A stretch of DNA of 64,000 nt from an uncultured Lachnospiraceae bacterium (GTDB taxonomy: Bacteria; Bacillota; Clostridia; Lachnospirales; Lachnospiraceae): NCBI GenBank assembly GCA_902777355.1, contig CACYTU010000004.1:1-64000 (forward strand), written 5' to 3'. The number at the start of each line of letters is the position of its first letter. Position 1 is the stretch's first letter. A model generated the notes under the pieces. It worked only from the letters and a program-made list of their open reading frames with translations. It was not told the origin of the DNA and searched no databases. The position numbers and the translations under genes are program-made. Of this stretch, positions 48,785-63,948 are shown one piece after another.

Positions 48785-48870
48785 AGATATCCCTCCCTTG
48801 AGAAATGGGCAGTTACATGACTTCTTTATCTGTTGCCTGATCCTTTTGTGCAAAAACCCCTTAAACAGAT

Positions 48871-49164: not shown

Positions 49165-49412
49165 CGAACAGGGCATCCAGTCTGCATCTGCAGCAAGTAT
49201 CCTGGCTTGGCTTCATCCTCCGTCCCGTCTTCCCGGAATGATTTTCAGAAAATCTCAAATAATCTCTTCCAGTGACTCCCGCGGCATTGTTTTCACGGCG
49301 CCGCAGGCAGGGACTTTGTCTGCCTCACAGTAGCGGGGGCTGCTCCGGTTTTGAACCGGATTCCTTGTCAGGCTCCGAAGAGCACTGCAAATGCTTTTCA
49401 ATTTTTCTGACT
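49165..49412 (-). ncRNA. Cobalamin (B12) riboswitch
   Basis: Read on the minus strand, the hallmark core GGAATCCGG...CCGGAGCAGCCCCCGC-ACTGT lies at 49364-49327. A TCACTGGAAGAG segment (around 49275) and the GAAGCCAAGCCAGGATAC-type B12 box at 49214-49191 complete the aptamer. A promoter lies directly upstream and a terminator directly downstream. The aptamer is well formed. The expected target gene (transport or cobamide synthesis) is not the next gene, which is Hsp70-like beyond a second terminator. Confidence 0.92.
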
Positions 49413-49604: not shown

Positions 49605-50987
49605 TTATTTCTTCATCGCGTCCAGAGCTTCCTGGATGGTCTTCTGAAGTTCTTCTTTCGAAGGGATGATAGAACGCCATTTCAGCTCGCCGTTCAGATA
49701 CATGGAAGGAAGGTTGGGAACACCCATCTTGATGCAGCGTGCGACGTTTTCCTTGTAGATGTATTTGTACTCGACCACGTCGATCTGATCGCCGAACATT
49801 TCGATGGCCTGGTTGGCGGCGCCCATCATGTAGCCGCAGGCTGCGCACTGGGCGGAATCCAGTGTGAAGACTTCCAGGAAAGGCTTCTCCAGGTGCTCGT
49901 AATCGGGAAGCACGACACCGGAGGTATCGATTTCCTCTGCCTGATAGTTTTTGACCATCTCGCGGACAGCATCTGTCTCAAGCGCTGCCTGTGCGATGCC
50001 GATGCAGTTCTCGATCGGGACTTTGTAGGGCATGTCACAGCCGGGAGCGATGATGAAATTGGTCTTGTCCGGAATGCTGTCGAGAAGTTCCACTGCGAAC
50101 TTCATGTTGTCCTGCTGATTGCCGAGCAGCATGATGGAGGTCAGCGGAATATTTCCGCCGATCGCGATGTTGTACTCGTCAGTAATCTTCTTGGCTGCCA
50201 GGATATCGACGTTCTCATCGACAGAAATGGAATCGGGGCCGGTCTGGCACATGACATCAATATTTCTGGTAGCGTCGCCGCATACAAAGAAGGAAGAGAA
50301 AGCACCCTTCTCGCGGATGAACGCGAAGATGTCCTTATAGGGTTCCATGCAATAGGTCTCGAAATCATCCGAAGAGATCTGGGAGATCAGCGGATCGACC
50401 ATGGCGATGACGTCCATGCCGGCTTCGATGTAGTACTCGGCAACCTTATTGCAGACGCGGGCGCAGAAGGCCATCAGATCGCAGACTTCATCCTCAAAGT
50501 CATACATATCTGTGAAGAGCTGGTTTCCGCGCAGGTGAGAAGCCAGTGTGAAAGGACCGCAGATCAGGCCGTACAGGGCGGTCGTATCTCCGACGGCTTC
50601 TTTCATGCGCTTCATAACTTCCAGAACATAAGGGATACGGCCGGATTCCTTTGTGGGAATCTTGCAGTCGCAGGGAGTTACGGGGGGCTCATCCTCGTCC
50701 TCGGTCTCCAGCGGGTGGGCAGATACGGAAGGCGGGCAGTCGTCCGCCCATCTCAGCTCGCAGCCAAGGCACTCGGCCTCGATCTGCAGATCAAAGATCA
50801 CGGGCTGTCCATCCGGACGATACAGGCGGTTGACTTCCATCAGGGACTCGAATGCCGCATCTGCATTTGTAAGCATCTCAGTCGCAGTGTAGCCTTTCAG
50901 AAAGCCGGCATGCACGCCTGCAAAAGGCACCCACGGAGCACGCTCGACCGGCTCATGTTTCAGACAACGGATCAACAGATCTTTCAT
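49605..50987 (-). CDS. UroD-family corrinoid methyltransferase with C-terminal thioredoxin-like domain
   Basis: This ~460-residue protein has a uroporphyrinogen-decarboxylase-like TIM barrel of the MtaA/MtbA methyltransferase type (residues 1-~350), with KHEPVERAPWVP at the start and LYGLICGPFTLASHL in the middle. These enzymes move methyl groups between a corrinoid protein and a thiol or substrate. Residues ~365-460 form a thioredoxin/glutaredoxin-like domain: FTLDSAQCAACGYM holds a CxxC, and GVPNLPSMYLNGE gives the cis-Pro-type strand. AAGGAGG lies five to six bases before the chosen ATG. The fusion suggests that the methyl acceptor or donor chemistry needs a dithiol. Confidence 0.85.
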   Translation of the reverse strand: MKDLLIRCLKHEPVERAPWVPFAGVHAGFLKGYTATEMLTNADAAFESLMEVNRLYRPDGQPVIFDLQIEAECLGCELRWADDCPPSVSAHPLETEDEDEPPVTPCDCKIPTKESGRIPYVLEVMKRMKEAVGDTTALYGLICGPFTLASHLRGNQLFTDMYDFEDEVCDLMAFCARVCNKVAEYYIEAGMDVIAMVDPLISQISSDDFETYCMEPYKDIFAFIREKGAFSSFFVCGDATRNIDVMCQTGPDSISVDENVDILAAKKITDEYNIAIGGNIPLTSIMLLGNQQDNMKFAVELLDSIPDKTNFIIAPGCDMPYKVPIENCIGIAQAALETDAVREMVKNYQAEEIDTSGVVLPDYEHLEKPFLEVFTLDSAQCAACGYMMGAANQAIEMFGDQIDVVEYKYIYKENVARCIKMGVPNLPSMYLNGELKWRSIIPSKEELQKTIQEALDAMKK

Positions 50988-51291
50988 CTTTACCTCCTTA
51001 CGCAAATCCATTACTGCTGCATCATTTTATTATACTTTTGGCTATGGTCTCGCATTCACAGCGATCTCATTACATGCCGGATAAAATACAAAAAATTTTC
51101 ATCTGACGCAGAATGTGATTTCTGTTTTTAACATTATAGGCGAAATCCACCCATTCTTTTTAGAATAAAAATTTATTTTTTTAGTAATTTCTTTGCGCAT
51201 TTGCCTGGTGCTCACGTCCTGCCGTCCGCTCCGTCTTCCTCCGTCTTCTGCTCCGTCTGCTCACCTGCCCGTCCGCTCACCTGCCGTCTGC
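50988..51291. other. Intergenic gap between the two methyltransferase genes
   Basis: About 300 bp. 51205-51295 contains CGTCTGCTC / CACCTGCCCGTC microrepeats just past the stop of the upstream methyltransferase gene. 51150-51190 is very AT-rich with a TTCTTTTTAGAA-type dyad. I see no gene and no clear promoter. Confidence 0.5.
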
Positions 51292-52335
51292 TCATTTTTT
51301 ATAAGCGCCGTAGGTTTTGGCGATCTCCACCATACGCCTGGCATGAGGGAAGGCATCGGGAGAGATCAGTTCGCAGCCGGTCGCCAGTATAAAACCGCCG
51401 CCCTTTGCCATGGCATCAATGCTGGCCTTGCACTCTGCTTCGAGCTTCTCGGGTGTTCCGACGGTCGCGGTCGTAGGCGCGACACAGCCGATCAGGGTCG
51501 TCACATCGCCGTATTTCTCCTTGCACTCGGCAAAATCGGCACAGTCATCCGGCGGATAAAGGAAGGAGATGGCTTCGGGATGCATGCGATTGATCTGTGC
51601 GTCAAAATAAATCTTGCCGCCGCAGTTGTGGATCATGACCATGGCGCCTTTGGAATGCACATGCTCGGCAAGTTCCTGTACCAGATCTCCTTCGAGTTCG
51701 TCCCACATGTCCTTGCTCATAATACTGCCGGACGCAAACAGAGTGTCAAACATGATGCCCTGCACGCCGGTCTCCAGAAGCGCGTCGCAATACTCTTTGA
51801 GCACCTGAGTAATGATACCGGCCGTGTCATGTACGACCTCGGGCTGTTCAATGCAGTCCACATACATCTCCGCCTGGTTGCGGAGCATGGAAAGTGTTCC
51901 GAGAGGTCCGAAGACAAAGGCTATCACAGGATATTCTCCCTTGGCGGCCTCCACCAGCTGCCTGCAGACATCGATATGCATCATCATGCGGTCACAGGTG
52001 CGGTAGTCGACATACTGGATCTTGTCGTACTCATCTTCATCGCTGATGACCTGATTTTTATAATTGGGATGAGCCGCCTCATGATCAGGGAAGACCAGCT
52101 CCTGGCCCCAGGCCGTACATTCGACAGACAGATCGATCAGTGTCACAATGCAGTCCAGATCAAATTCCTCTTTGGCTTTTAAAAGACCCTTCACACAGGT
52201 GTCGGCGTCTGTCGACCACTCGCGGCAGTTCGCTCCGATCAGATGTCTGGATACGCCTGCCAGCAGAGGATATGCCGGTACATGGTCAGGTTCCTGATGG
52301 TTTAAAGCCATGACAACTCTTTCCATTGAATTCAT
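51292..52335 (-). CDS. UroD-family (MtaA-like) methyltransferase
   Basis: This ~347-residue TIM-barrel methyltransferase resembles MtaA/MtbA and other UroD-like enzymes that pass methyl groups to or from corrinoid proteins. The start MERVVMALNHQEPDHVP is typical. Zinc-ligand candidates are His and Cys in MIHNCGG, the Cys of IGCV, and the Cys in ATGCEL. AFVFGPLG lies in the middle. AAGGAGG is eight bases before ATG. It is preceded by its own promoter with an operator-like dyad, and is followed by the thioredoxin-fused paralogue. Confidence 0.88.
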   Translation of the reverse strand: MNSMERVVMALNHQEPDHVPAYPLLAGVSRHLIGANCREWSTDADTCVKGLLKAKEEFDLDCIVTLIDLSVECTAWGQELVFPDHEAAHPNYKNQVISDEDEYDKIQYVDYRTCDRMMMHIDVCRQLVEAAKGEYPVIAFVFGPLGTLSMLRNQAEMYVDCIEQPEVVHDTAGIITQVLKEYCDALLETGVQGIMFDTLFASGSIMSKDMWDELEGDLVQELAEHVHSKGAMVMIHNCGGKIYFDAQINRMHPEAISFLYPPDDCADFAECKEKYGDVTTLIGCVAPTTATVGTPEKLEAECKASIDAMAKGGGFILATGCELISPDAFPHARRMVEIAKTYGAYKK

Positions 52336-52446
52336 CGTATATCCTCCTTGGTACATCAATTGAAAAAGTATTTGTCTTTTCCTTCTCTATTGTTTCAGAG
52401 GACCTCCCGACCTCCGGATGTCAGAATGTTCTCTTCACATGCAGGA

Positions 52447-52465
52447 TAGTAGACTATATCTACTA
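52447..52465. promoter_or_regulatory. Operator-like perfect inverted repeat
   Basis: TAGTAGA-ctata-TCTACTA, a perfect 7-bp inverted repeat, lies five bases downstream of the -10 box of the methyltransferase promoter. A matching element lies downstream of the transporter promoter (60742-60761). PadR-family repressors bind such dyads, and a padR-like gene is adjacent. Confidence 0.65.
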
Positions 52466-52470
52466 TGTGT

Positions 52471-52498
52471 ATAATAATAAAAAGCTATGCCCTGTCCA
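52471..52498 (-). promoter_or_regulatory. Promoter of the methyltransferase gene
   Basis: Minus-strand TGGACA (52498-52493), a 16-nt spacer and TATTAT (52476-52471), with the operator-like dyad over the expected start of transcription. Confidence 0.55.
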
Positions 52499-52507
52499 GT
52501 ATTTGAT

Positions 52508-52544
52508 AAGCTGTTGTCACGTCCCTTCAGGGGATCAACAGCTG
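52508..52544. terminator. Dyad between the padR-like gene and the methyltransferase gene
   Basis: AGCTGTTG and CAACAGCT arms enclose a loop that itself has CCCTTCAGGGG. The T-tract is on the plus strand (TTTTA) and weak, so it may be an attenuator or simple hairpin ending the padR-like transcript. Confidence 0.4.
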
Positions 52545-52588
52545 TTTTACTGGCTCCCGGAAGTTGGTACCGGGGCAGCCCGCACGGT

Positions 52589-52981
52589 TCACAGCTTCTG
52601 AAAAATCTCAGTAACTCCCGCTGTCTCTTCCATACTGCTGACCAGATCCGCAATAGACGCTGCATAGCTGCGCAGCGTCACCTGCCAGTTTCCCAGACAG
52701 GCTTTTCCCTTTTCCGTGATGGAATACACTCTCCTGGAAACATCCTTGTCCTGCGCGTTTTCCAGCCTGGAAGTCAGATATCCCGAGGCCTCCATCTTCT
52801 TCAGATAACGGTAGACACCGGTCTTATCCGGCTCGATGCCTCCGAACATGGGATTTTTGCCCAGATCCCGAATGATCAGCCAGCCGTATTTGTCCTGCCG
52901 GTACAAGCTCATCAGGATACCGGGCTGCAGCATCTTGTCCAGATTTTTCCCTTTGCAGGGACAGTCCATTTCAAAATACAT
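52589..52981 (-). CDS. PadR-family transcriptional regulator with Cys-rich N-terminus
   Basis: This ~130-residue winged-helix protein fits the PadR family. It has the opening helix LDKMLQPGILMSLYRQDKYG, a recognition-helix region ending YRYLKKMEASGYL, and the wing RRVYSITEKGKACL, followed by a dimerisation helix. The N-terminus carries MDCPCKGKN, two cysteines that could sense metal or thiol state. I choose the start MYFEMD because GAGGAG lies eight bases upstream. It lies 25 bp after the cobW gene. I infer that it controls the nearby methyltransferase and transporter promoters. Confidence 0.85.
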   Translation of the reverse strand: MYFEMDCPCKGKNLDKMLQPGILMSLYRQDKYGWLIIRDLGKNPMFGGIEPDKTGVYRYLKKMEASGYLTSRLENAQDKDVSRRVYSITEKGKACLGNWQVTLRSYAASIADLVSSMEETAGVTEIFQKL

Positions 52982-53006
52982 TGGATGATCTCCTCTATCC
53001 TGCTTC

Positions 53007-53945
53007 TCAGCCAAGTGTGATCTCTCCGATCTCATCGGGGTACCAGGCAGCAGCTTCGCGCACACGTTTTCTCACAGGCATTCCGGATCCGGACAAAACG
53101 GTGAGAAGACCTTGCAGGTGTACAGGCACCGGTCTTTCCCAGGCCGACACAGACACGACATTGCCGGTACAGCTGACCAGCATCATCCCCTCTTTCGTCT
53201 GTACAAATCCCTTCACACGAAAGGTTGTCTCCGAGAACATTTCAATAAATTTCCGCAGCTGATATACAGTAATCTGCGGATTGACGCGGACTGACAGCCG
53301 CATCGTTGTTATGTCCGCGATCAGCGGCATCTCCCGGTCACCGCCGTCTGCTGTTTTCTGAAGACTGCAAAGGAGATCCGGAAGGCTGCTGTCCACCTGT
53401 CCGAACGATGTCTCCAGGACCGGCATGTCGGGGCGATGTCCCCTGATCAGTTCCCTGGTACTCTCCAGCTGTTCAGGCGAAGCCAGGTCCGTCTTGTTGA
53501 TCAGGGCAATATCCGAAGCGGAAACCTGCCGCAGGCATGCGCGTGATTTGGCGTAAACTTTCGGAAAACGCACCGCATCCACCAGGCATACCGCACCGGC
53601 GTATTCTATGTCGGGAAAGCGGCTTTGATCCGCGAAGAGCCGTCGTACACCCGTGGGGTCCGAGAGTCCGGAGGCTTCCACCAGGACTACGTCGGTATCC
53701 GGTTCCACAAAGGTCGTCAGCGCCTGCTCAAACTGGTCGAGCCGGCAGGAGCAGAAGACAGACCCTCCGGTAATCTCCTCCATCCCTATGCCGAGTTCCT
53801 CCAGCAGCATGCCGTCGATTCCCTCCCTGCCGAACTCGTTGATGATCAGCTGCATTTTTTCTCCCGGGAAAAGCCTTATGAAGTTTTTCAGAAAAGTGCT
53901 CTTCCCGGATCCCAGAAATCCGGTGATCAGATACAGTCTGCTCAT
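53007..53945 (-). CDS. CobW-family GTPase (metal chaperone type)
   Basis: This 312-residue G3E GTPase has Walker A GFLGSGKST at residues 8-16, NEFGREGIDG, a GGSVFCSCR motif in place of the usual CxCC, Walker B VLVEASGLSDP, and the specificity motif NKTD near residue 150. The C-terminal ~100 residues form the CobW_C domain. Members deliver metals or activate metalloenzymes; here Zn for the methyltransferases or cobalt for the corrinoid protein are plausible. I use the ATG at 53945; a TTG 15 bases earlier is an alternative. It precedes the padR-like gene with 25 bp spacing. Confidence 0.88.
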   Translation of the reverse strand: MSRLYLITGFLGSGKSTFLKNFIRLFPGEKMQLIINEFGREGIDGMLLEELGIGMEEITGGSVFCSCRLDQFEQALTTFVEPDTDVVLVEASGLSDPTGVRRLFADQSRFPDIEYAGAVCLVDAVRFPKVYAKSRACLRQVSASDIALINKTDLASPEQLESTRELIRGHRPDMPVLETSFGQVDSSLPDLLCSLQKTADGGDREMPLIADITTMRLSVRVNPQITVYQLRKFIEMFSETTFRVKGFVQTKEGMMLVSCTGNVVSVSAWERPVPVHLQGLLTVLSGSGMPVRKRVREAAAWYPDEIGEITLG

Positions 53946-54001
53946 GATCTCATCCGCCAAAGCTGCTGATAGCAGGTAAAGCTTTTTTTCCGCTGCTTCA
54001 A

Positions 54002-54030
54002 ATCTTAATGTAAAGTATAATTTTTACCAA
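54002..54030 (-). promoter_or_regulatory. Possible promoter for the cobW-padR unit
   Basis: Minus-strand TTGGTA (54030-54025), a 17-nt spacer and TAAGAT (54007-54002). A TGCAAAATAATTACAAA element overlaps the lipoate-ligase stop just upstream (54061-54077). Confidence 0.4.
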
Positions 54031-54067
54031 TTTGGGTTTATCGAAAAAACATCTCATGTTTTTGTAA

Positions 54068-54919
54068 TTATTTTGCATCCATCAATATATCGGTACTTTC
54101 AGAGATGATTGCCCCCATGACGGTCTCCATTTTCAGGTCGGGATAGCGGTCGCACAGATTGGTCACACGGCTCCTTACAGAGGCGATTCTGTGGCGCGCG
54201 AGCTTGGCCGGAGAAGCATTCAGGACTGCCGCCATCCGGTCCAGATCCACATCAAACATGAGCGTCGCATGGAACAAAAAGAACCCTTCCGGAGTCTCCC
54301 GGGAAGCCGAACCGGAAAATTTTCCTCCTTCTCCGAAAGGCTCTTCCGTCCTGAAATCCCCTTCCTCTTTGACGGATCCAGAGGTTTTCATCCCGGAAAT
54401 CCCCGGTCCGGCATCCTTGAGTACAAGGTCGTTTCTTCCTGTTTTACAGGCGTCAACTCCGCATTTTACAAGGGCTTTCAGCAATATTTCCTGACAAATC
54501 GCTTCATCGAGGCTGTCCGCATACGCTATAAAGGAGACGTTCAGATTGCCCGGATCCTGGAAGACCGCGCCCCCGCCGGTGCGGCGTCTGACGATCCGGA
54601 TTCCCATCTTCTCCGCGGCATCCAGGCGGCACTCCGCCTCAGCATCCTGGTGTCGTCCGATCACGACACAGTCCTCATTCCGCCAGAAAAGCAGGCAGAG
54701 CACACCCCGCTCTGCCTGCCCTGTAAGCTCCTCCTCGATGGACAGATTCTCCTCTGCATCTCTGCTGTCACTTTGCAGAACCCGGATTCCGCAAAAGCGT
54801 CCTGCTCTGTCTTCACAAGAACTGTTTCCATACTCAGAGATTTGTTCCGAATACCCAAAAAGACCCGTTTTCTCCCGAAAACAAATCTGCCGGACACCTT
54901 TTGGTAATTTCTTTGGCAC
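54068..54919 (-). CDS. Lipoate-protein ligase (LplA-like)
   Basis: This ~284-residue enzyme activates lipoate (or octanoate) with ATP and attaches it to a lysine of a lipoyl domain. Motifs include RRRTGGGAVFQDPGNLNVSFI, GRNDLVL and LFHATLMFDVD, then SVRSRVTNL. About 31 extra residues are inserted before KFSGSA, which usually follows NDL closely. I choose the GTG start at 54919: AGGAG lies six bases upstream, and the GTG is only one base past the stop of the lipoyl-domain gene, a clear case of translational coupling. The adjacent lipoyl protein is the obvious acceptor. Confidence 0.9.
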   Translation of the reverse strand: MPKKLPKGVRQICFREKTGLFGYSEQISEYGNSSCEDRAGRFCGIRVLQSDSRDAEENLSIEEELTGQAERGVLCLLFWRNEDCVVIGRHQDAEAECRLDAAEKMGIRIVRRRTGGGAVFQDPGNLNVSFIAYADSLDEAICQEILLKALVKCGVDACKTGRNDLVLKDAGPGISGMKTSGSVKEEGDFRTEEPFGEGGKFSGSASRETPEGFFLFHATLMFDVDLDRMAAVLNASPAKLARHRIASVRSRVTNLCDRYPDLKMETVMGAIISESTDILMDAK

Positions 54920-54920
54920 T

Positions 54921-55214
54921 TTATTCTCCTGTTTCGATATATCCAAGAACGTCTCCGTAGGTAAATTCCTCCCCGTCTTCAATGCAGATTTCCGCAAACT
55001 GCCCGCTACAGGGCGCACGAAATTCGAAGGTCTTTTTTTCTATCTCTCCTTCGCAGATCACCTGGTCCTGCTCCACAGAGTCTCCCGGTCTGACCAGCCA
55101 GAAGATCTCTCCTGTCTTGTGGCGGATATGATACTCCCTGTTCTGGCACTCGCAGGGGTGCTCCGGATCCTTTTTGGGTCTTGCCTTGGGGGGCACTAAT
55201 ATTTCCACTCTCAT
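54921..55214 (-). CDS. Free-standing lipoyl-domain protein
   Basis: This 97-residue protein is essentially one biotinyl/lipoyl-type domain. The lipoylation site is in EGEIEKKTFEF, at Lys60 or Lys61, in the expected hairpin turn, flanked by VRPGDSVEQDQ and the ending APCSGQF...GDVLGYIE. The N-terminus (~30 residues) is basic and holds CEC. It differs from GcvH, which is longer. Coupling to the lipoate ligase gene and the nearby dihydrolipoyl-dehydrogenase-like gene indicates a lipoyl arm cycling between dithiol and disulfide or carrying a group. No E1/E2 or glycine-cleavage genes are in the window. Confidence 0.85.
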   Translation of the reverse strand: MRVEILVPPKARPKKDPEHPCECQNREYHIRHKTGEIFWLVRPGDSVEQDQVICEGEIEKKTFEFRAPCSGQFAEICIEDGEEFTYGDVLGYIETGE

Positions 55215-55387
55215 CTTAATTTACTCCTCCATATCTGCCCTGCTTCGAAGCGGCTCCGGGAGAATCGCGCGTGCCCGGCTTTTCAGAGACAAGCCGGCAT
55301 CTTCCCCGCTGTGTGCGTGCTGCATCCAACACTCCTTCGGCCTGTCGGAGCCTTTTTGCTGCTGTTCCGCTGTTCTCTCCGGTGCAA

Positions 55388-55990
55388 TCAGTCCTTGTCA
55401 TTCAGGGGATAGTAGGGACATTCCCCATGCCGGCATTCTTTGTTCTTTTCGTAATATTTACAGACCACACGGGGGCTGTTCTGCAGATGCAGACCGAGCT
55501 TTTCATTGATATAGGGAACCGATTCGGAGACAGACAGATAGGCTGTGCGCTTGCAGCATCTGGGCCCCTCCACCGACGCGATCTTCTGCAGACAGAGCCC
55601 TGTCAGTTCATTGCACCACTGCCAGGTCTTTCCGGAAACCGGCGTTGTCTGAGTCCAGACACTCATAAAAATACCCGCCCCGACACCTGCTCCGCATGCG
55701 CCGAAGTTTCCGCAGACTCCTCCGGGAACCTGCAAGGAACGGGTTTTGGCTGTGTCGAGCATTTCCTCCAGCGCCTCGCGGGGCTCCGACTGTTCCATGG
55801 CGGCCAGTGTCAGGAGCGCCGCAGGCATGATGAAATGATGATAGGGATAGTGGATGGGAACCTCGGGATGATCCATCATCTTTTCGAGCAGTTCTTCAAC
55901 CGTCAGCTTTTGCCCTGCATCATAGACGCCCAGGCAGATCTGCTGCAGATCCGCTAAAACAGAATCCTTCAAAATAATCTGATGTACCAT
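55388..55990 (-). CDS. DUF5714 family cysteine-rich protein
   Basis: This ~200-residue protein matches DUF5714, a family frequent in anaerobes near methyltransferase or metal-cofactor genes. Conserved-looking elements are GGVCGNFGACGAGVGAGIF near residue 90, WCNELTGLCL, EGPRCCKRTAY, and a C-terminal CKYYEKNKECRHGECPYYP with three Cys. The cysteine pattern suggests a metal or Fe-S site. GGGAGG lies eight bases before the chosen ATG (MVHQII). It sits between the flavoprotein gene and the lipoyl-domain gene. Molecular function is unknown. Confidence 0.8.
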   Translation of the reverse strand: MVHQIILKDSVLADLQQICLGVYDAGQKLTVEELLEKMMDHPEVPIHYPYHHFIMPAALLTLAAMEQSEPREALEEMLDTAKTRSLQVPGGVCGNFGACGAGVGAGIFMSVWTQTTPVSGKTWQWCNELTGLCLQKIASVEGPRCCKRTAYLSVSESVPYINEKLGLHLQNSPRVVCKYYEKNKECRHGECPYYPLNDKD

Positions 55991-56130
55991 AATCGATTCC
56001 TCCCTATGCAATCAAGCTCTTTCTCTTTCACATGCATTTATTCTACATCGCGCAATAACCAGTGACTACATAACAGACGCGGGATACAAACGCAGCTAAG
56101 CAAACTCGTTTCATCGCAGGTACAATCCTC

Positions 56131-57777
56131 TCATCTCCGTCGTTTGACGGGAAGCTCAGGAGAGCCGCCGCAGGCATCCTCCACTGCCATTCGCACAAGC
56201 TCGCTCAGAGAAGGATGGGCGAAGACCTGCCTGCAAATCTGACTGCAGGGAATCCGGTAGAGGATATAGGACTGCAGCAGATGGATCATTTCCTCTGCTT
56301 CAGGTGCGATGACACAGGCCCCCAGAAGAAGATCGGTCTTTGTGTCGCGCCATACTGTCACTGAACCGTCTGTATATTGCCTGATTCGTGCTGCTCCGGA
56401 TGCATAAACAGGCGCCTTGCCGGTTCTGATAATAAACCCCCGGGCACGGATTTCTTCGATCGACATGCCCACACAGGCTGCCGGAGGGTCGATATGAAGA
56501 CATGCGGGCGCGCACATCCTCTCCCATCCCCGAGAGATATCCGCCTCCGGGTGAGTTTTCCAGCCCATATCGGGAAAGAGCTGAATGCTTTCACCGGTGT
56601 CCATATCCTTCTGCAGGATCACTTCTGCCGCCTGTTCCGCCTGCCATGTCCCATAATAAGCTGTCTTCTCCTGTCCGTTTGCATCCCCGATGCAAAAAAC
56701 GTGCGGATTTGCAGTTCTTCCGCAGGCATCCGCCCGGATATAACCGTCCTGTGTCAGATGAAGGCCGAGAGCGTGGGCTTTTCTGGCAGGAAACACAGGT
56801 CTTCGCCCCACGGCAGTCAAAACAGCCGTCCTGACCTCTTTCTCCGGCATATGTCCTGCTTCCCTTTGTACAGGGTCCGGCTCCTGCAGGCCGCCTTGGG
56901 GATCCTCTTGTTTTTCCCGCTTTTCCCGGCAGGGCGGCATGCTTTTCAGGACCTCATCCAGCCAGGCATCGTACGACCGGCAATTCTCCCGTATCCTGAC
57001 CCCGTGCCTCTCCAGGATTCTCCGGACAGCCCTTCGCGGTTCTCTGCTCCAGGATGCCAGGATCTGCTCTCCCGCCTCGCAGAGTTCTACGGCCGGCACA
57101 AAAGCGGACATGGCATCCGCTATCTCGCATCCTGCTGTCCCGCCGCCAATCACGATCAATCTGTCCGGAAGAGTTTTCATCTCTCTCAAAGTGTCCGTTG
57201 TATAAAAGCCGACCGAGGGGTTCTTTTTTGCCGAAAGCAGAACAGACTCCGGAACCATGGGGGCTGATCCGGGCGCCAGAACAATGTCCCTTGCGGAATA
57301 TTTTTCTCCGCCCGTCTCAATTTGCAGCCCTTCCGGGCCTCTCTCCGGAAAAATCTCTTCTCCTTCCAGAAGGCGGACGCGCCGGGACATCTGCACCAGC
57401 CGGATCCCTTCTGTCATCTCTTTTGCGGTCTGCGCGGTCTCTTGCAGAAAGTCTTCCCAGGCAGCCTGCCTTATATCATCCTTCAGGTGCCGGTTTTCCC
57501 GATTTGCAGGGGATCCGTTGTTTTTCATGTTCCCTGAATCGGGGCATTGTGGGGAGAGCTGACTGCCCGCAGGCTCCTCTCTGAGCCTCCGGCGCAGCCC
57601 GGCCGCCGCCAGGGAAAGTTTTTTTGTCGGAATGCAGCCGGTTCTGAGGCAGGTCCCGCCCGGAGACACGCAGTCGGCCAGGGCAGTCCGTTTTCCGTTT
57701 TCAGCAAGGACAGCGGCTGCCCGGCACCCTGCAGGTCCTGCGCCGATCACGATCACATCATAGCGTCTGTCCTCCAT
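56131..57777 (-). CDS. Dihydrolipoyl-dehydrogenase-like flavoprotein
   Basis: This ~548-residue FAD/NAD disulfide oxidoreductase should reoxidise or reduce a lipoyl dithiol. The FAD loop GAGPAG is at residues 12-17; the redox pair Cys43 and Cys48 lies in GGTCLRTGCIP. The NAD loop GGGTAGCE is near 217, the second FAD motif CIGDANG near 395, and the catalytic His-Glu pair lies in FAHPSLSE at the C-terminus. At 548 it is longer than the usual ~470, with hydrophilic inserts at ~65-110 and ~300-345. AAAGGAG lies seven bases before ATG. It begins 11 bp after the permease stop, in the same transcript. Confidence 0.88.
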   Translation of the reverse strand: MEDRRYDVIVIGAGPAGCRAAAVLAENGKRTALADCVSPGGTCLRTGCIPTKKLSLAAAGLRRRLREEPAGSQLSPQCPDSGNMKNNGSPANRENRHLKDDIRQAAWEDFLQETAQTAKEMTEGIRLVQMSRRVRLLEGEEIFPERGPEGLQIETGGEKYSARDIVLAPGSAPMVPESVLLSAKKNPSVGFYTTDTLREMKTLPDRLIVIGGGTAGCEIADAMSAFVPAVELCEAGEQILASWSREPRRAVRRILERHGVRIRENCRSYDAWLDEVLKSMPPCREKREKQEDPQGGLQEPDPVQREAGHMPEKEVRTAVLTAVGRRPVFPARKAHALGLHLTQDGYIRADACGRTANPHVFCIGDANGQEKTAYYGTWQAEQAAEVILQKDMDTGESIQLFPDMGWKTHPEADISRGWERMCAPACLHIDPPAACVGMSIEEIRARGFIIRTGKAPVYASGAARIRQYTDGSVTVWRDTKTDLLLGACVIAPEAEEMIHLLQSYILYRIPCSQICRQVFAHPSLSELVRMAVEDACGGSPELPVKRRR

Positions 57778-57788
57778 CTGCGTCTCCT

Positions 57789-58697
57789 TTACATCTCCCA
57801 GACAATCAGTTTTTTCTGTAAAACATCGATACATTTGTTAAGAGCCGTCACGACAGTCCCCACTACTATAATCCCTGCGACAACCTTTGTGTAGTTGCCG
57901 TATGTATTATAGTTTACTATATAATACCCCATTCCGCTTGTCGCGCCCATCATCTCAGCAAAAGTCAGCAGCATGATTCCTGTCGTGAAAGTAACCTTCA
58001 GACTTCCGACCACCCCTGCAAACGCATAGGGAAAGAGGATCTCCAGGATCATGGAGGTATTGCTCAGATTCATGGCGCGCGCACTGTCCATGATCCCCTT
58101 GTCCATGCCGTCAATGCGGACGATCATTCCCAGGAAAGTCGGCCAGAAGATTCCCAGGATCAGGACCACTGCGGAGGCACTTCGAAAGGTCGGCATCAGG
58201 GCCACAACATAAGGGGCAAAAACAGTGGACGGAATCGGGGCAAGTACGCCGGCGATCGGATGAAAAAGGTCCCGAAGGCGCCGGATCCATCCGCAGATCA
58301 GGCCGGCTGCCATTCCCGCCGCCAGTCCCGCGATCATGCTGCTCAAAAACAGCCTGAGAGAAGAAAAAACACCCGTCGCGATCACTCTGCGGTCATCCGC
58401 AAAAACCTGAAAGACATTCTCCGGCGCAGGGACAAGAACCGGGTGCATAAGGGCCAGTTTTGTCACTGCGCACTCCCAGACTATGAGAAATCCCCACAAA
58501 ACGACCATCAGGTCGGACGCTGCGCGCAGCTGCTCTCTGTTCCGGGTGACCCGGATCAGGTACAGGATTTCCATAAGGGCGATCGCAGCCAACATGGCAA
58601 AAGGAGGCTGCACCTCTTTTTTTCCGGGCAGCCGGATCAATATGCAGAGAACGATGAGAAGAATGTGACTGAGTATGCTTGTACGTTTACGATTCAT
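57789..58697 (-). CDS. ABC transporter permease, TauC/SsuC-like
   Basis: This ~303-residue permease with about six membrane helices belongs to the nitrate/sulfonate/taurine group. Its EAA-type loop is in MDSARAMNLSNTSMILEILFPYAFAGVVGSL. GGAGGAG lies six to eight bases before ATG, and the start overlaps the ATPase gene end by 11 bp. With the ATPase and the binding lipoprotein it forms a complete importer, likely for the substrate of the methyltransferase system. Confidence 0.9.
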   Translation of the reverse strand: MNRKRTSILSHILLIVLCILIRLPGKKEVQPPFAMLAAIALMEILYLIRVTRNREQLRAASDLMVVLWGFLIVWECAVTKLALMHPVLVPAPENVFQVFADDRRVIATGVFSSLRLFLSSMIAGLAAGMAAGLICGWIRRLRDLFHPIAGVLAPIPSTVFAPYVVALMPTFRSASAVVLILGIFWPTFLGMIVRIDGMDKGIMDSARAMNLSNTSMILEILFPYAFAGVVGSLKVTFTTGIMLLTFAEMMGATSGMGYYIVNYNTYGNYTKVVAGIIVVGTVVTALNKCIDVLQKKLIVWEM

Positions 58698-59430
58698 GGA
58701 ACCACTCCTCCAAAGACGCTCGAAGCTCTCTGCAGTCTGAATACCCCTTGGACCCGGCACAGCATTCACTGATCCTTTCAGATATTTCCATTTCCCGCTC
58801 AATCGCTCCGTTTCTCATAAACACGATCCTGGTCCCCATAGCCAGCGCCTCATCGAGGTCATGTGTGACGAAAATCACGGTCTTCTTCTCCTCCTTCCAG
58901 AGTTTCCGCAGAAGCTTCTGCAGGTCCGCACGGATCGCGGGATCCAGCGCACCGAAGGGCTCGTCCAGAAGAAGCACCTCCGCGCCCGAAGCCAGTGCTC
59001 TGGCTATGGCCGTGCGCTGCCTCATACCGCCGGAAAGCTGATAGGGGTATTTGTCCTGCGCATTCTCCATCCCGGTTTTCCCGAGAAAAAGATCCGCCCG
59101 CCGCTCCATCTCCTCTTTCCCGAAACGGCGGCTCTTTTTCATTGCAAACAGGACATTTCCCCGCACCGTCTGCCAGGGAAAAAGGGAATACTGCTGAAAC
59201 ACCACCGCGCGGTCCATGCCCGGCACATTCATATTGCGGCCATCCCTTGTGATAGAGCCCGACTGCAGAGGAAGAAGACCCGCCAGCAGATGGATCAGGG
59301 TGCTCTTTCCGCAGCCCGAGTGCCCCAGAACACACACAAATTCTCCATCCTGTACAGTGAGGGAGAGATCACGGATCACCGTCTCTTTGCTGTTTTCGTA
59401 AGTATATTGAAGATTTTTAATTTCAATCAC
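58687..59430 (-). CDS. ABC transporter ATP-binding protein, TauB/SsuB-like
   Basis: This ~248-residue ATPase has Walker A GHSGCGKST (~38-46), Q-loop FQQYSLFPWQTV, signature LSGGMRQR, Walker B VLLLDEPFGALD and the switch His in VTHDLDEA, the pattern of nitrate/taurine/sulfonate importers. I favour the GTG start at 59430 (AAGGA eight bases upstream); an ATG at 59478 would add 16 residues without a good site. It overlaps the permease gene by 11 bp. Confidence 0.9.
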   Translation of the reverse strand: MIEIKNLQYTYENSKETVIRDLSLTVQDGEFVCVLGHSGCGKSTLIHLLAGLLPLQSGSITRDGRNMNVPGMDRAVVFQQYSLFPWQTVRGNVLFAMKKSRRFGKEEMERRADLFLGKTGMENAQDKYPYQLSGGMRQRTAIARALASGAEVLLLDEPFGALDPAIRADLQKLLRKLWKEEKKTVIFVTHDLDEALAMGTRIVFMRNGAIEREMEISERISECCAGSKGYSDCRELRASLEEWFHES

Positions 59431-59494
59431 AGCCTGTTTCCTTCCCCTGCCCCGGTTTGTCAGAACATCTTTTTGCATCGCCCCTGCATCTTGA

Positions 59495-60694
59495 TCAATT
59501 GGTCTCTTTCGCCTCCTGCATGAGATCCTGCCAGAGAGTATTGTCCGCCTCGCGGTCCGCCAGGGTCTGCAGCGCGGTCTCATAAACAGTGGTGTCGACG
59601 TGGTCTGCCATATCGACAGGGGTATTTGCGTCAATATCACCGTTCAGCTTCATGGTCTCATAGAAATCCAAAACTTTCTTTTTGTTGGGGTTGAGAGAGA
59701 CGATCATGGCATTTCTGTATGTGTCCGTTCCGTACATGACCGCCTCTGTGTAGGCCGCGTCCTGCCCTGAATAGGCCGACAGCACTTCGATGGTCTTTGC
59801 ATGGTCGTTCAAATAGATCTCATAGGCACGCAGCGCAGCAATCTCAAACTTCACAAGGGCATCCTTCTTTTCCGCAAGGGTCTTTCCGGAAGTCGACTGG
59901 CGGCAGCAGGGGAAGCCTTCCACAAAATCGCCTGCGTGAAATGCCACCTTCAGGCCGTTTCCCTCCGCAACATAACCGAACCCGCTGTTGACAAAGCCCA
60001 GATCAACCTCTCCTTTTTTTACGGCTTCTGCGATGGATGCCTGAGAATCCAGATAAACATACTGGACATCCACATCGGGCTCCAGCCCGTGCTCACGCAG
60101 GTATCCCTTCATGACCATATGTCCGGTCTCCATGCGGAAGCACCCGATCTTTTTGCCGCGGAAATCCTCCGCTTCTTTGTAAAGGTCCGCATTCTCGGGA
60201 AGGGTCACACACTCGCTGCCCTCTGAAATCGTTCCGCCGAACACACACACATCCGCGCCCTGGGAGGCGAAGCTCAGCGTGGGGATGGCCCCGTAGGGAA
60301 GGACATCCAGCTTGCCCTCACTGACAGCCGTGATTCCCTCCGCAAGATTGGAGACCTTCTCAAACTGCACATCGACACCCTCTTCTTCAAACAGCCCCAG
60401 CTCCTTTGCCATGATGACGCAGGCTGTCTTCATATCCTGCCCCAGCATACCCACTTTGAGAGTTTCCATCTCTTCTGCAGGCACCTGCGCAGAAACACTT
60501 TCCGATGCGGTTTCCGAAGCAGCTTCTGTTCCGGCAGCCCCGGTATTTTCCGCCTCCTGCCCGGCCTGCTGATCAGCCCCGGCAGCTTCCTGGCCTGCAC
60601 TGTCCGCTGCCGATGAACCTCCTCCGCACCCGGACAGAAGAACTGCCCCCGTGATCATTCCTGCCAGTACTGCCGCGACCCATCTCTTCTTCAT
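59495..60694 (-). CDS. ABC substrate-binding lipoprotein, NitT/TauT type
   Basis: This 399-residue lipoprotein (signal peptide, lipobox LLSGC, Cys23) is the capture component of the importer. After a Gln/Glu/Ala-rich stalk (~25-75) the type-II binding fold starts at METLKVGMLGQDMKTA, with VAEGITAVSEGKLDVLPYGAIPT and GKKIGCFRMETGHMVMKGYL, as in SsuA/TauA-like proteins. AAAGGAGG lies seven bases before ATG. It is the first gene of the transporter unit and has an operator-like dyad at its promoter. The ligand is unknown. Confidence 0.9.
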   Translation of the reverse strand: MKKRWVAAVLAGMITGAVLLSGCGGGSSAADSAGQEAAGADQQAGQEAENTGAAGTEAASETASESVSAQVPAEEMETLKVGMLGQDMKTACVIMAKELGLFEEEGVDVQFEKVSNLAEGITAVSEGKLDVLPYGAIPTLSFASQGADVCVFGGTISEGSECVTLPENADLYKEAEDFRGKKIGCFRMETGHMVMKGYLREHGLEPDVDVQYVYLDSQASIAEAVKKGEVDLGFVNSGFGYVAEGNGLKVAFHAGDFVEGFPCCRQSTSGKTLAEKKDALVKFEIAALRAYEIYLNDHAKTIEVLSAYSGQDAAYTEAVMYGTDTYRNAMIVSLNPNKKKVLDFYETMKLNGDIDANTPVDMADHVDTTVYETALQTLADREADNTLWQDLMQEAKETN

Positions 60695-60741
60695 GCCTGT
60701 ATCCTCCTTTAATTATGTAGCTGATGGTGTATTTGGCCCGC

Positions 60742-60761
60742 AGTAGACCAAGTCTATTACT
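60742..60761. promoter_or_regulatory. Operator-like inverted repeat at the transporter promoter
   Basis: AGTAGAC-caa-GTCTAtTACT closely matches the dyad at 52447-52465 and lies seven bases downstream of the -10 box, as at the other site. I infer a shared repressor, probably the PadR-like protein. Confidence 0.6.
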
Positions 60762-60768
60762 TGAGAAT

Positions 60769-60811
60769 ATCATACACCTTACCGAGCTCTTTTTTTTGTA
60801 ATTATTTTGGA
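60769..60811 (-). promoter_or_regulatory. Transporter promoter with an AATAATTACAAA motif
   Basis: Minus-strand TATGAT (60774-60769) lies 20 nt after CCAAAATAATTACAAA (60810-60795), a variant of the motif at the cbiC and riboswitch promoters. Confidence 0.5.
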
Positions 60812-60892
60812 ATTAAGGAAAAAGCGGATTATTTCCGGGCAGATGGGACACTTGTGACTCAATAAAATGGACATAGCCGGTATCAAAAAGGG

Positions 60893-60945
60893 AACTCCCG
60901 GCAGGGACACCGGATTTTTCCTGTTCGGTATCCCCGCCGGGAGTT
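60893..60945 (-). terminator. Terminator after the DUF2284 gene
   Basis: AACTCCCGGC (60893-60902) pairs with GCCGGGAGTT (60936-60945), with an inner GGGATACC...GGTGTCCC stem. The minus-strand side continues TCCCTTTTT. It may also act on the plus strand. Confidence 0.8.
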
Positions 60946-60959
60946 TTCATCTTTTTACA

Positions 60960-61502
60960 TCATTTAAACAGCACACAGCCTGTAAAGGTAACGGTATTTC
61001 TGCCGTAATAATAGGGCGTATCCGCGCTTTTGCATACGTCCGTGACCAGCAGTCCGTAGGCTTCCATTGAAGTAAATGCCCTGTCGGGAAAGCGGCAGGG
61101 CGCATCCGGATAGGTGCAGCTCGCACACTGCTGTCCGCATCCTCCGCTTCCCATGGGCAGAAAAGCTTCCTCCCCCATTTCGCGCAGGCGGCCGACATAT
61201 TTCAGGAAGCGGTCGCGCTGTGTCACCTGGGCTTCTTCGATCGCTTCTCCGTCGAATTCATCCTCCATCTGGGCAGTAGTCTGCAGAACGATTCCCCATT
61301 TAAACTGCTTCGCCTTTTTCCTGCTGTCTGCAAGGGTTCCGCAGGCAGGCGGACATGTCCAGAGCCTTCCGTAGTTGCCGCATTTGTTGGCCTTGCACAT
61401 ATCGCGGACTTCCTTGAGAAAGTTCAAGTCCTTTGTTTCAAAAATGCCTCTGCCTTTAAATCCAATCTCCTCCGCCAAAGCGGCGGCTGTCTCTTTGGTC
61501 AT
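60960..61502 (-). CDS. DUF2284 predicted metal-binding protein
   Basis: This 180-residue protein belongs to DUF2284, small cysteine-rich proteins of anaerobes thought to bind metal or Fe-S. The Cys pattern is CKANKCGNYGRLWTCPPACG near residues 35-54, then GGCGQQCASC and APC around 120-135, and VCKS. It starts with ATG and has GAGGAGG ~13 bases upstream. It follows the activator gene in the corrinoid block and ends at a terminator. A role in assembling or activating the corrinoid/methyltransferase system is suggested by context only. Confidence 0.85.
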   Translation of the reverse strand: MTKETAAALAEEIGFKGRGIFETKDLNFLKEVRDMCKANKCGNYGRLWTCPPACGTLADSRKKAKQFKWGIVLQTTAQMEDEFDGEAIEEAQVTQRDRFLKYVGRLREMGEEAFLPMGSGGCGQQCASCTYPDAPCRFPDRAFTSMEAYGLLVTDVCKSADTPYYYGRNTVTFTGCVLFK

Positions 61503-61609
61503 ATTTGTGATGAACCTCCTCTGTAAAGTTGCTCTGTCCGTGCGGAAGATTGATCCTTCCTGATCACGCCCAAAACCTCTCGAATTTCATGGTAGTCTGA
61601 AAACAGCAA

Positions 61610-63100
61610 TCAATCCTGTTCCGGGAAAAATATATTGTCCATGTAGAGATCGCTGAAGAGAGGGTTCTCCGCGAGAGCCGTCTCCTCCGCGTTCTCTCCA
61701 ACAGCGCGCATGCGCTCCAGAACAGAAGGATCGCAGGCTGCCATCACGGCGCCGGCAAGGGAACTGTTGCCCACAGGAACCATCCTGTCCAGCAGTTCCT
61801 CCGGAAGCAGGCCGATCCCGACCGCCTTTTCCAGATTGATCTTCTGGCCGAAGCCTCCGGCAATATAGAGCTTTCCGATCTGATCATAGTCTGCTCCGTA
61901 CTCTTCCAGCAGGACCTCCAGTCCCGCGCGCACGGCGGACTTGGCCAGCTGTACCTCACGGACATCCTTGTTGGTAAACACAATTCCTTCCGCGACAGGG
62001 AATCCGTCGTCAAAATATTTATCATCCAGAAGGCCGGTCTCATCGACCAGCTCCTCCTTCAGGAGCTCGTAGACAGTCTCCAAAACACCCGTCCCGCAAA
62101 GACCGACAGGAGGCAGATTCCCGATCGTCTGCACCCTTGCATTGCCGTCAGTGATCTCCACGCTGCTGACCGCGCCCGGGATGCCCGCAACGCCGCAGCT
62201 GATATTGCCGCCCTCAAAAGCGGGGCCGGCCGCCGTGGACGCCGATATGATGCGGTCACGGTTTCCGATCGCCATCTCGCCGTTGGTACCAAGGTCAACG
62301 AGGATACAGATCTCCTCGCTCTGATCGATCCCGCATGCCACGATGCCGCTCACAATATCCGCGCCGACAAAGGTACTGATCCCCGGAAGAATCGTCATGT
62401 TTTCATATTCATGCAGGGAGATATCGACCGGCGTGTAGGGGGCAGCTCCCAGAGTCTTGCAGGAAAGTCCCTGCAGCAGGTGTTCCATGGTTGAATTTCC
62501 GCTGATCACCATCCGGGTATCCTGCGCCAGTCCCAGTTTTTCCCGCAGCAGATCCAGATCAGCGCGAATGCTCTTCTGCAACAGGCCGCCCTTACCCTGA
62601 TTGGAAGCCTCCATCCTGCTGATGACATCGGCTCCCCAGCTTCTCTGGTGATTAATGCCCGTGGAAGTCCCCAGAATCCGTCCGCTGCCGATTTCCACAG
62701 CGGACATTGCGATGGTTGTCGTACCGATATCGACAGCCGCCGTTATGGTTCCGCCTTCCTCAGGTTCTTTCTGTCCCGGGATCCTGCCGGGGGCTCCATT
62801 CAGCACAAAGCCGGACGCAACGTCCATCTGTTTCTCGTCCCCTGCTTCGATTTCAATGACAGCGCCCTTCACGGCTGCAGTCCTGCAGGCAAGGCGCACG
62901 CCTGCCGCAATCTCCGCTTCTGTCAGAACTTTGCGGTCTGCCTGCGATGGTGCGGGCGGATCCTGGACAAAGCGGACCCGGCACTTACCGCAGGTACCGT
63001 TCCCGCCGCAGGGAGCCAGGATATATTCCCCTTGTGCCTGCAGTGCCTGCAAAATACTTGTGCCCTCTACTGTGTTCTCTATCCGGATCCTGTGTCCCAC
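61610..63100 (-). CDS. RACo/RamA-type ferredoxin-ASKHA corrinoid activator
   Basis: This ~497-residue protein reductively reactivates inactive Co(II) corrinoid proteins with ATP. Residues 1-~85 are a [2Fe-2S] ferredoxin-type domain with Cys31, Cys37, Cys40 (APCGGNGTCGKC) and a fourth in RLACR. The rest is the DUF4445-type ASKHA domain: AVDIGTTTIAMS near 125, GNSTMEH, LVDLGTNGEMAIG near 275 and YIAGGFG near 425. I choose the GTG start at 63100: GAGGAGG lies eight bases upstream, and the ferredoxin domain begins there. It follows the corrinoid-protein gene. Confidence 0.92.
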   Translation of the reverse strand: MGHRIRIENTVEGTSILQALQAQGEYILAPCGGNGTCGKCRVRFVQDPPAPSQADRKVLTEAEIAAGVRLACRTAAVKGAVIEIEAGDEKQMDVASGFVLNGAPGRIPGQKEPEEGGTITAAVDIGTTTIAMSAVEIGSGRILGTSTGINHQRSWGADVISRMEASNQGKGGLLQKSIRADLDLLREKLGLAQDTRMVISGNSTMEHLLQGLSCKTLGAAPYTPVDISLHEYENMTILPGISTFVGADIVSGIVACGIDQSEEICILVDLGTNGEMAIGNRDRIISASTAAGPAFEGGNISCGVAGIPGAVSSVEITDGNARVQTIGNLPPVGLCGTGVLETVYELLKEELVDETGLLDDKYFDDGFPVAEGIVFTNKDVREVQLAKSAVRAGLEVLLEEYGADYDQIGKLYIAGGFGQKINLEKAVGIGLLPEELLDRMVPVGNSSLAGAVMAACDPSVLERMRAVGENAEETALAENPLFSDLYMDNIFFPEQD

Positions 63101-63213
63101 TCTTTTTTCCTCCTCGGGCAGATTATACCTTGCGCGGTCGTGTGATAAGATCACACAGCTATTTTACAGGTGTTGCTTATTTACTGCACCTGATATTTCC
63201 TTTTTTTACAAAT

Positions 63214-63242
63214 CATGCCCCCGCTTGATCTGCGGGGGCATG
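63214..63242. other. Hairpin between the corrinoid-protein and activator genes
   Basis: CATGCCCCCGC and GCGGGGGCATG form an 11-bp perfect stem with no T-tract on the minus strand. It may balance expression of the two genes by stabilising mRNA ends rather than terminate fully. Confidence 0.6.
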
Positions 63243-63309
63243 TATTTCTCCTTACAATAGCGCCCTGGGGCGCAGGCTCTGCTTCAAGCCGCACAAATCA
63301 CCCTGAAAA

Positions 63310-63948
63310 TCAGGCGCTGACAAACTCAAGCGCTTTTTCCGCCGCGCTGGGAGCATCCTCTGTGTAGGCATCAGCGCCGATGCTTTCCGCAAACTCCTGG
63401 GTGACGGGAGCACCGCCGACCATGATCTTGACCTTGTCGCGGATTCCGGCTTCCTCGGCCGCTTTGATGACTTCGCCCATCATAGGCATTGTGGTCGTGA
63501 GCAGGGCAGACATTCCGATGATGTCAGCGTTTTCGTCGATTGCCGCCTGGATAAATTTTTCCGGGGCCACGTCGACGCCAAGATCGACGACCTCGAAACC
63601 CTTGCCCTCAAACATCATGATGACCAGATTCTTGCCGATATCATGCAGGTCGCCCTGGACTGTGCCCATGACGATCTTGCCCTTGCCGGTCGCGCTGTCA
63701 TCGGAAAGATAGGGTTTGAGCACCTCGGAACCGGCCTTCATGGCTCGCGCCGATACCAGAACCTGAGGCACGAAAATCTCATTTGCCTTGAACTTTGCTC
63801 CGACGACATCCATGCCCGCGAGAAGTCCTTTGGTCAGAATATCATTGGGGGCCAGTCCCTCATCGATTGCCTGCTGACAGAGTTTCTTTACGTCTTTTCT
63901 TTTGCCTTTCTGTAACATCTCGGAAATCTGTTCAAGCACTTCACTCAT
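63310..63948 (-). CDS. Corrinoid (B12-binding) methyl-carrier protein, MtaC/MtbC-like
   Basis: This 212-residue protein has the methionine-synthase-type helical cap (1-~85) and the B12-binding Rossmann domain (~90-212). The cobalt-ligand motif is D100-L-H102-D-I-G105, so His102 coordinates cobalt. MSALLTTTMP and VGGAPVT are the further nucleotide-tail pocket motifs. It carries the methyl group between the substrate-specific and acceptor methyltransferases. AAAGGAG lies eight bases before ATG. It is the first visible gene of the block; upstream genes are outside the window, so a substrate-specific MtaB/MtbB-type methyltransferase could lie beyond the edge. Confidence 0.94.
   Translation of the reverse strand: MSEVLEQISEMLQKGKRKDVKKLCQQAIDEGLAPNDILTKGLLAGMDVVGAKFKANEIFVPQVLVSARAMKAGSEVLKPYLSDDSATGKGKIVMGTVQGDLHDIGKNLVIMMFEGKGFEVVDLGVDVAPEKFIQAAIDENADIIGMSALLTTTMPMMGEVIKAAEEAGIRDKVKIMVGGAPVTQEFAESIGADAYTEDAPSAAEKALEFVSA

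Follow-up and report, generated by a model that had tools for sequence, protein, structure and literature searches.

Lipoate acts in 2-oxoacid dehydrogenases, in glycine cleavage, in sHdr sulfur oxidation and in the SirTM setting. In the last of these, an operon for SirTM, GcvH-L and LplA2 reportedly places a GcvH-like lipoyl carrier beside a dedicated ligase, in connection with ADP-ribosylation. The lipoate-binding protein LbpA of the sHdr system is likewise described as GcvH-like in the accessible part of PMC10332631. Corrinoid-dependent methyl transfer in anaerobes has been assigned to type 1 mlp gene clusters, which combine several UroD proteins with a corrinoid protein and an activator, carry no annotated gene for a tetrahydrofolate (H4folate) methyltransferase, and were proposed to serve the use of methylated selenium or sulfur compounds (Kountz and Balskus, PMC10418091). 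Furthermore, anaerobic demethylation of dimethylarsenate by methylotrophic methanogens and bacteria is reported in the accessible part of PMC10579292. Here, a locus is described in which genes of a UroD/corrinoid methyltransferase system stand together with those of a free lipoyl protein and a lipoate-protein ligase (LplA). It lies in a stretch of 64,000 nucleotides (the window) from an uncultured Lachnospiraceae bacterium (contig CACYTU010000004.1, positions 1 to 64,000). In a literature search, no paper tying lipoyl proteins to corrinoid methyltransferases was found.

A first-pass annotation of positions 49605-63948 had placed all listed genes on one strand, which was borne out: every named gene is encoded on the minus strand, and Pfam matches back the gene identities (Table 1). 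In the direction of transcription the order is corrinoid protein, RACo, DUF2284, importer (binding protein, ATPase, permease), a flavoprotein resembling dihydrolipoyl dehydrogenase (Lpd-like), DUF5714, lipoyl protein, LplA, CobW, PadR, UroD347 and UroD-Trx. The locus extends further than had been assumed, as the contig continues with a PocR/AraC regulator and a third UroD protein. Both UroD-type methyltransferases of that annotation are present; the C-terminal thioredoxin fusion of the last one, here termed UroD-Trx, had been missed.

In fold and likely chemistry, UroD-Trx corresponds to the MtaA/MtbA methylcobamide:coenzyme M methyltransferases of the UroD superfamily (PDB entry 4ay7) and keeps both zinc-site cysteines, whereas the fused thioredoxin domain, a phenylalanine at the zinc-site histidine and NCBIfam scores below the cut-off set it apart. 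Like type 1 mlp clusters, the locus belongs to anaerobes and combines several UroD proteins (here three) with a corrinoid protein and an activator (RACo), and no H4folate methylase gene was found within 20 kb, in agreement with the rule in PMC10418091. It was nevertheless rejected as such a cluster under the rules of that work (gaps of at most 2 kb), since UroD347 and UroD-Trx are located about 9 kb or more from RACo and only the third UroD protein is less than 2 kb from the corrinoid protein. Moreover, the lipoyl, LplA, DUF5714 and CobW genes are additions; the terms lipo, CobW and DUF do not occur in the main text of PMC10418091. With LbpA, as far as the accessible part of PMC10332631 describes it, the lipoyl protein shares that it is free, has its own ligase and stands outside 2-oxoacid dehydrogenases and glycine cleavage. 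In contrast to LbpA, it belongs to PF00364, carries an N-terminal CxC motif and matches E2 lipoyl domains, and sHdr genes were not identified at the locus. The adjacency of lipoyl gene and ligase also resembles the SirTM/GcvH-L/LplA2 arrangement; SirTM-type genes were not identified at the window locus. Finally, the Tau-like importer and its PCC(R/x)(Q/x) motif recall the selenocysteine-assisted organometal (SAO) system and the CUxxT motif of SaoB as given in the accessible part of PMC13188914, whereas the window locus features corrinoid chemistry. Importer matches to the SaoA, SaoP and SaoX models are far below cut-off. SaoL (a MerB-like lyase), SaoT (a thioredoxin), SaoB and SaoC did not appear among the listed NCBIfam matches, which cover every locus protein except RACo (13 of 14), with up to 25 matches each for the Lpd-like protein and the ATPase; the locus alone was covered.

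The lipoyl protein represents an apparently undescribed family. A first search returned 13 homologues, and a profile of 18 sequences returned 170 at E<=1e-10, 120 of which were listed. In the alignment of 121 proteins found plus the window protein (122 sequences), lysine K60 is present in 122/122 and the C21-x-C23 motif in 121/122, the exception being P0013, evidently a frame-shifted fragment. The protein shows the lipoyl fold with a lysine at the hairpin, and K60, the predicted lipoyl lysine, aligns with that of E2 lipoyl domains in the PDB; the alternative Lys61, which the first-pass annotation had also offered, does not. The one-base spacing between lipoyl gene and LplA holds for the most likely LplA start, GTG 54919, which lies one base past the lipoyl stop and has AGGAG upstream. 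The catalytic domain of LplA was recognized by PF21948 and by a match to E. coli LplA 1x2g (Table 1).

The genome of the window, G000 (84.08% complete, 5.12% contaminated, a near twin of G392), encodes a single LplA as far as found, located at the locus. Its four PF00364 matches are two biotin carriers with the EAMKM motif, one protein read as HlyD-like, and the window lipoyl protein; no other lipoyl-type carrier was found in this 84% complete genome. The sole GCV_H (PF01597) match in G000, at 22.5 bits against a cut-off of 22.2, belongs to one of these biotin carriers, encoded on contig C59. An identity as GcvH or as the GcvH-like LbpA was rejected, as no PF01597 match exists at the locus. 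An E2 of a 2-oxoacid dehydrogenase was rejected as well, the protein being a free chain of 97 amino acids and no E2-type chain occurring among the PF00364 matches of G000, the genome in which E2 chains were sought. Across the lipoyl genomes searched for LplA and GcvH (11 of 13; all except G602 and G768), LplA was found in ten, exactly once in nine, and in seven of those nine at the lipoyl locus.

UroD-Trx is encoded in all 13 genomes with the lipoyl protein, including every one of the ten recovered via the lipoyl protein (best match E<=1.1e-110, 43–99% identity). In a sample of the class, representing one draw of 391 genomes among which relatives are not independent, UroD-Trx was detected in 40; the lipoyl family is represented at full length in three and by partial matches only in 13 further genomes. 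All three lipoyl genomes are among the 40 with UroD-Trx; without the genome of the window the count is two of two, with a chance probability of about 0.01. The link between lipoyl protein and UroD-Trx is real. At the level of neighborhoods, UroD-Trx was located within 10 kb of the lipoyl gene, on the same strand, in eight of the 13 loci. Within the same distance, DUF5714 was observed 13 times, CobW nine, LplA eight, PadR seven, importer, RACo, DUF1638, a hydantoinase-like protein and the Lpd-like enzyme four each, and corrinoid protein, DUF2284 and UroD347 two each; these counts depend on score thresholds and contig ends, and that for PadR includes one unrelated gene 9.8 kb away (L018). The interpretation in the first-pass annotation is partly supported: lipoyl protein and UroD methyltransferase go together, but a regular presence of the Lpd-like enzyme and the corrinoid protein beside them is not supported. 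As for the five loci without a nearby UroD-Trx gene, the contig of L011 ends just after the lipoyl gene, L018, L181 and L182 have UroD-Trx elsewhere in the genome, and L015 is probably the L014 arrangement split between contigs.

In a tree of 52 UroD-Trx proteins, lipoyl-bearing loci are present in both deep clades, and the lipoyl-locus state needs five changes, at least four of them forced by well-supported branches, be they gains or losses. L052 was labeled as a lipoyl locus by inference, because both this contig and the L015 contig end within neighboring genes whose order matches L014; L053 was omitted as a duplicate of L014. Among 55 clustered loci, including more than one stretch from a few genomes, 52 contain the UroD-Trx cluster, 45 one CobW cluster, six a second CobW cluster and 23 corrinoid proteins. 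UroD-Trx is also far more widespread than the lipoyl family; UroD-Trx and CobW thus form the common base, to which the lipoyl unit is an add-on. The pair of UroD-Trx and CobW is frequent in the class sample (L084-L123), accompanied in places by genes of the MttB or MeTr type, and we know of no described function for it.

The AlphaFold model of UroD-Trx (mean predicted local distance difference test (pLDDT) 93.4) has as its best Foldseek match in the PDB the methylcobalamin:coenzyme M methyltransferase 4ay7 (target template modeling (TM) score 0.89, 24% identity). Compared with this structure, Phe-Val-Cys replaces His-x-Cys and the second cysteine is retained; the zinc site that marks SCMT proteins was not recovered. 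The thioredoxin domain of the window protein scores 23.1 bits, slightly below the Pfam cut-off of 24.8, while that of the relative L118 reaches 58.3 bits and exceeds it; the CxxC motif (C383, C386), either CAAC or CAPC, is invariant in 24/24 aligned relatives. UroD347 possesses the His-x-Cys and Cys zinc site of SCMT proteins in the alignment to 4ay7, at an NCBIfam score below cut-off. In the third UroD protein (UroD419), reading of the sequence revealed His-x-Cys without the second cysteine, and no PDB relative was found at E<=0.001. Relatives of UroD-Trx in L118, L120, L121 and L123 comprise 556-575 amino acids, with two thioredoxin stretches in L118, and some matches (e.g., L063, L070, L071) hold one in-frame TGA, TAA or TAG.

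Tentatively, and at somewhat less than an even chance, the locus may be understood as a UroD/corrinoid methyltransferase system to which a lipoyl-carrier module has been joined; the lipoyl arm would be kept reduced by the Lpd-like flavoenzyme and would donate electrons from its dithiol to the thioredoxin domain (CxxC) of UroD-Trx. K60 would be lipoylated by the window LplA, alone or with a partner, and electrons would flow from NAD(P)H via the Lpd-like enzyme to the lipoyl dithiol and on to CxC/CAAC. The importer would bring in a thiophilic methyl compound, with the methyl group on sulfur, selenium or arsenic, CobW would load metal into the methyltransferases, and the methyl group would travel via the corrinoid protein, itself activated by RACo, to a thiol instead of H4folate. 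Where a locus has no Lpd gene, this role would fall to a different reductase of the cell. We infer every step of this electron flow; what is observed are the genes themselves, the thioredoxin fusion, the invariant lysine and the CxC motif of the lipoyl family, its constant pairing with DUF5714, its co-occurrence with UroD-Trx and the single LplA found in the genome.

Reduction of the lipoyl arm is suggested by Lpd-like genes that adjoin LplA and lipoyl genes at four loci, which fall into three kinds (window/L009, L012, L018). The window protein contains the redox CxxxxC motif and a C-terminal HPSLSE, at a TIGR01350 score below cut-off (Table 1); with about 548 amino acids it is longer than usual Lpd, and the forms in L012 and L018 comprise 393 and 414. 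A thiophilic methyl substrate is likely, judging by cysteine motifs that recur across the locus (CxC in the lipoyl protein, CxCxG in PadR, PCCRQ in the binding protein, Cys-rich DUF5714) and by the position of DUF5714 near arsenate-reductase-like genes elsewhere. Stand-alone H4folate:corrinoid methyltransferases, as judged by open-frame length, were not found in ten of the 13 lipoyl genomes (E<=1e-8), and the only MeTr match of G000 at this threshold is located in an 889-amino-acid frame on contig C55; in most lipoyl genomes, H4folate therefore probably does not serve as methyl acceptor. A wider proposal, regarded as doubtful, sees in the family a new use of lipoic acid: in anaerobes, lipoyl arm and CxC would provide a dithiol, bound to a protein, that powers corrinoid-dependent transfer of methyl groups from thiophilic and possibly metalloid compounds and replaces H4folate or coenzyme M as partner of UroD-Trx.

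Several findings weigh against the dithiol relay. An Lpd-like gene is near the lipoyl gene in only 4/13 loci and a corrinoid protein gene in 2/13; on the other hand, the idea of the lipoyl arm as dithiol reductant, raised in the first-pass annotation, is strengthened by the thioredoxin domain fused to the methyltransferase. No C-terminal LplA domain is present in the window LplA, in contrast to the L014 homologue, and GcvH was found in two of the 11 genomes searched (G399, G400), the latter without an LplA match. Since 37 of the 40 sampled UroD-Trx genomes are devoid of the lipoyl protein, UroD-Trx must have other reductants. Furthermore, UroD-Trx is missing from the vicinity of the lipoyl gene in 5/13 loci, the constant neighbor being not the methyltransferase but DUF5714, adjacent in 13/13. 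This pairing, together with L018, where a self-contained Lpd-LplA-DUF5714-lipoyl run stands apart from a UroD-Trx gene elsewhere in the genome, speaks for a lipoyl protein that serves DUF5714 in a separate reaction, the methyltransferase neighborhood reflecting shared regulation or habitat. Such a separation is considered unlikely, given UroD-Trx in 13/13 lipoyl genomes as compared with roughly 10% of the class sample, and lipoyl-bearing loci in both deep UroD-Trx clades.

It is similarly improbable that lipoyl dithiol, CxC and the Cys-rich DUF5714 constitute a soft-metal(loid) shuttle that holds an imported methylated metalloid of the arsenic, selenium or mercury type while corrinoid enzymes strip the methyl groups. 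Cysteine motifs in the lipoyl protein, in the importer protein (PCCRQ invariant in 5/5 aligned relatives of at least 300 bits) and in PadR (CxCxG in 7/8, aligned at 80 bits or more) agree with a shuttle, as do the sub-cut-off likeness of the importer to SAO models and the genomic company of DUF5714 away from lipoyl genes, where an arsenate-reductase-like gene lies within 1.5 kb in 7/28 places and ArsM-like genes in three more (survey of 35 places, 30 of which came with loci). However, no ars query matched any lipoyl or UroD-Trx locus, the ArsC/ArsM-like matches are mostly below NCBIfam cut-offs, and PCCRQ also occurs in an importer without a lipoyl gene (L106). Still less probable is that the dihydrolipoyl group itself accepts the methyl group as a protein-bound stand-in for coenzyme M, whereby a UroD protein would methylate a lipoyl thiol and the S-methyl arm would hand the methyl group on or release a methyl-sulfur product. 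The kinship of UroD-Trx to methylcobamide:coenzyme M methyltransferases, the His-Cys-Cys pattern of UroD347, which PMC10418091 ties to sulfur/selenium methyltransferases, and the rarity of stand-alone H4folate:corrinoid methyltransferases described above would suit such an acceptor, whereas the phenylalanine at the zinc-site histidine of UroD-Trx does not; turnover of S-methyl-lipoyl would require a further enzyme, none of which is evident, and redox cycling fits the Lpd-like partners better.

Table 1. Features of the lipoyl/UroD-Trx locus in order of transcription, headed by the two genes beyond the window on the same contig (C4).
Feature	Position	Strand	Supporting matches and remarks
Third UroD protein	C4:65681-66940, beyond window	-	same contig, same strand as locus
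PocR/AraC regulator	C4:64118-65557, beyond window	-	same contig, same strand as locus
Corrinoid protein (B12-binding)	63310..63948	-	PF02310/PF02607; nearest NCBIfam MtgC-type, 230 bits, below cut-off 370
RACo-type corrinoid activator	61610..63100	-	PF14574, PF17651, Fer2; start GTG 63100 with AGGAGG
DUF2284, predicted metal-binding protein	60960..61502	-	PF10050, 152 bits
NMT1/Ssu-type substrate-binding lipoprotein	59495..60694	-	PF09084; SsuA family 71 bits, below cut-off; PCCRQ cysteine pair
ATP-binding cassette (ABC) transporter ATPase	58687..59478 (start uncertain)	-	PF00005
ABC transporter permease	57789..58697	-	PF00528; SaoP 61 bits, TauC 60 bits, both below cut-off
Dihydrolipoyl-dehydrogenase-like flavoprotein	56131..57777	-	TIGR01350, 228 bits, below cut-off 408.8; PDB Lpd 2eq6, E 4.5e-40
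DUF5714, Cys-rich	55388..55990	-	PF18978, 188 bits
Lipoyl protein, 97 amino acids	54921..55214	-	PF00364, 45 bits; predicted lipoyl lysine K60; N-terminal C21-x-C23
LplA, lipoate-protein ligase catalytic domain	54068..54919	-	PF21948, 153 bits; E. coli LplA 1x2g, E 3.8e-35; PF10437 absent
CobW-family GTPase	53007..53945	-	PF02492; YjiA 1nij
PadR regulator, N-terminal CxCxG	52589..52981	-	PF03551
UroD347, UroD-type methyltransferase	51292..52335	-	PF01208, 172 bits; His-x-Cys and Cys kept (alignment to 4ay7)
UroD-Trx, MtaA-like UroD methyltransferase with C-terminal thioredoxin domain (CAAC)	49605..50987	-	PF01208, 182 bits; Thioredoxin_3, 23.1 bits

An independent metagenome-assembled genome (L009) contains 12 of the locus genes in identical order with 88–99% protein identity, so that the locus is neither a chimera nor an assembly artefact; UroD347 was undetected in L009, and the contig of L009 begins at RACo. 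A single transcript for the locus is not evident: several intergenic gaps measure 120-300 nucleotides, promoter-like sites are not in excess (11 versus 9.7 in shuffled sequences), and terminator-like sites are commoner than in shuffled sequences (29 versus 15.0, both strands). A cobalamin riboswitch (89.3 bits) occupies 49175-49404 on the minus strand, with UroD-Trx on its upstream side and an Hsp70-like gene (46211-48787) on its downstream side; it would be unusual for a B12 switch to precede a gene of the chaperone type.

The DUF5714 model (pLDDT 92.6) has no clear match in the PDB as far as found. The family adjoins arsenate-reductase-like genes in L188, L191, L194, L196 and others, and in L198 and L200 it is fused to a radical SAM-like part, with an ArsM-like gene adjacent. 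G000 contains a second DUF5714 gene on contig C98 (L172), without a lipoyl neighbor.

If B12-dependent methyl transfer does draw on a lipoyl carrier, lipoate would gain a further role. Such a link may also explain why LplA is kept in genomes in which no GcvH was found. Since the lipoyl protein occurs in records under the names Robinsoniella peoriensis and Emergencia timonensis, the proposal can be tested in isolates, and it would, if true, provide a testable route for the anaerobic use of methyl-sulfur, methyl-selenium or methyl-arsenic compounds.

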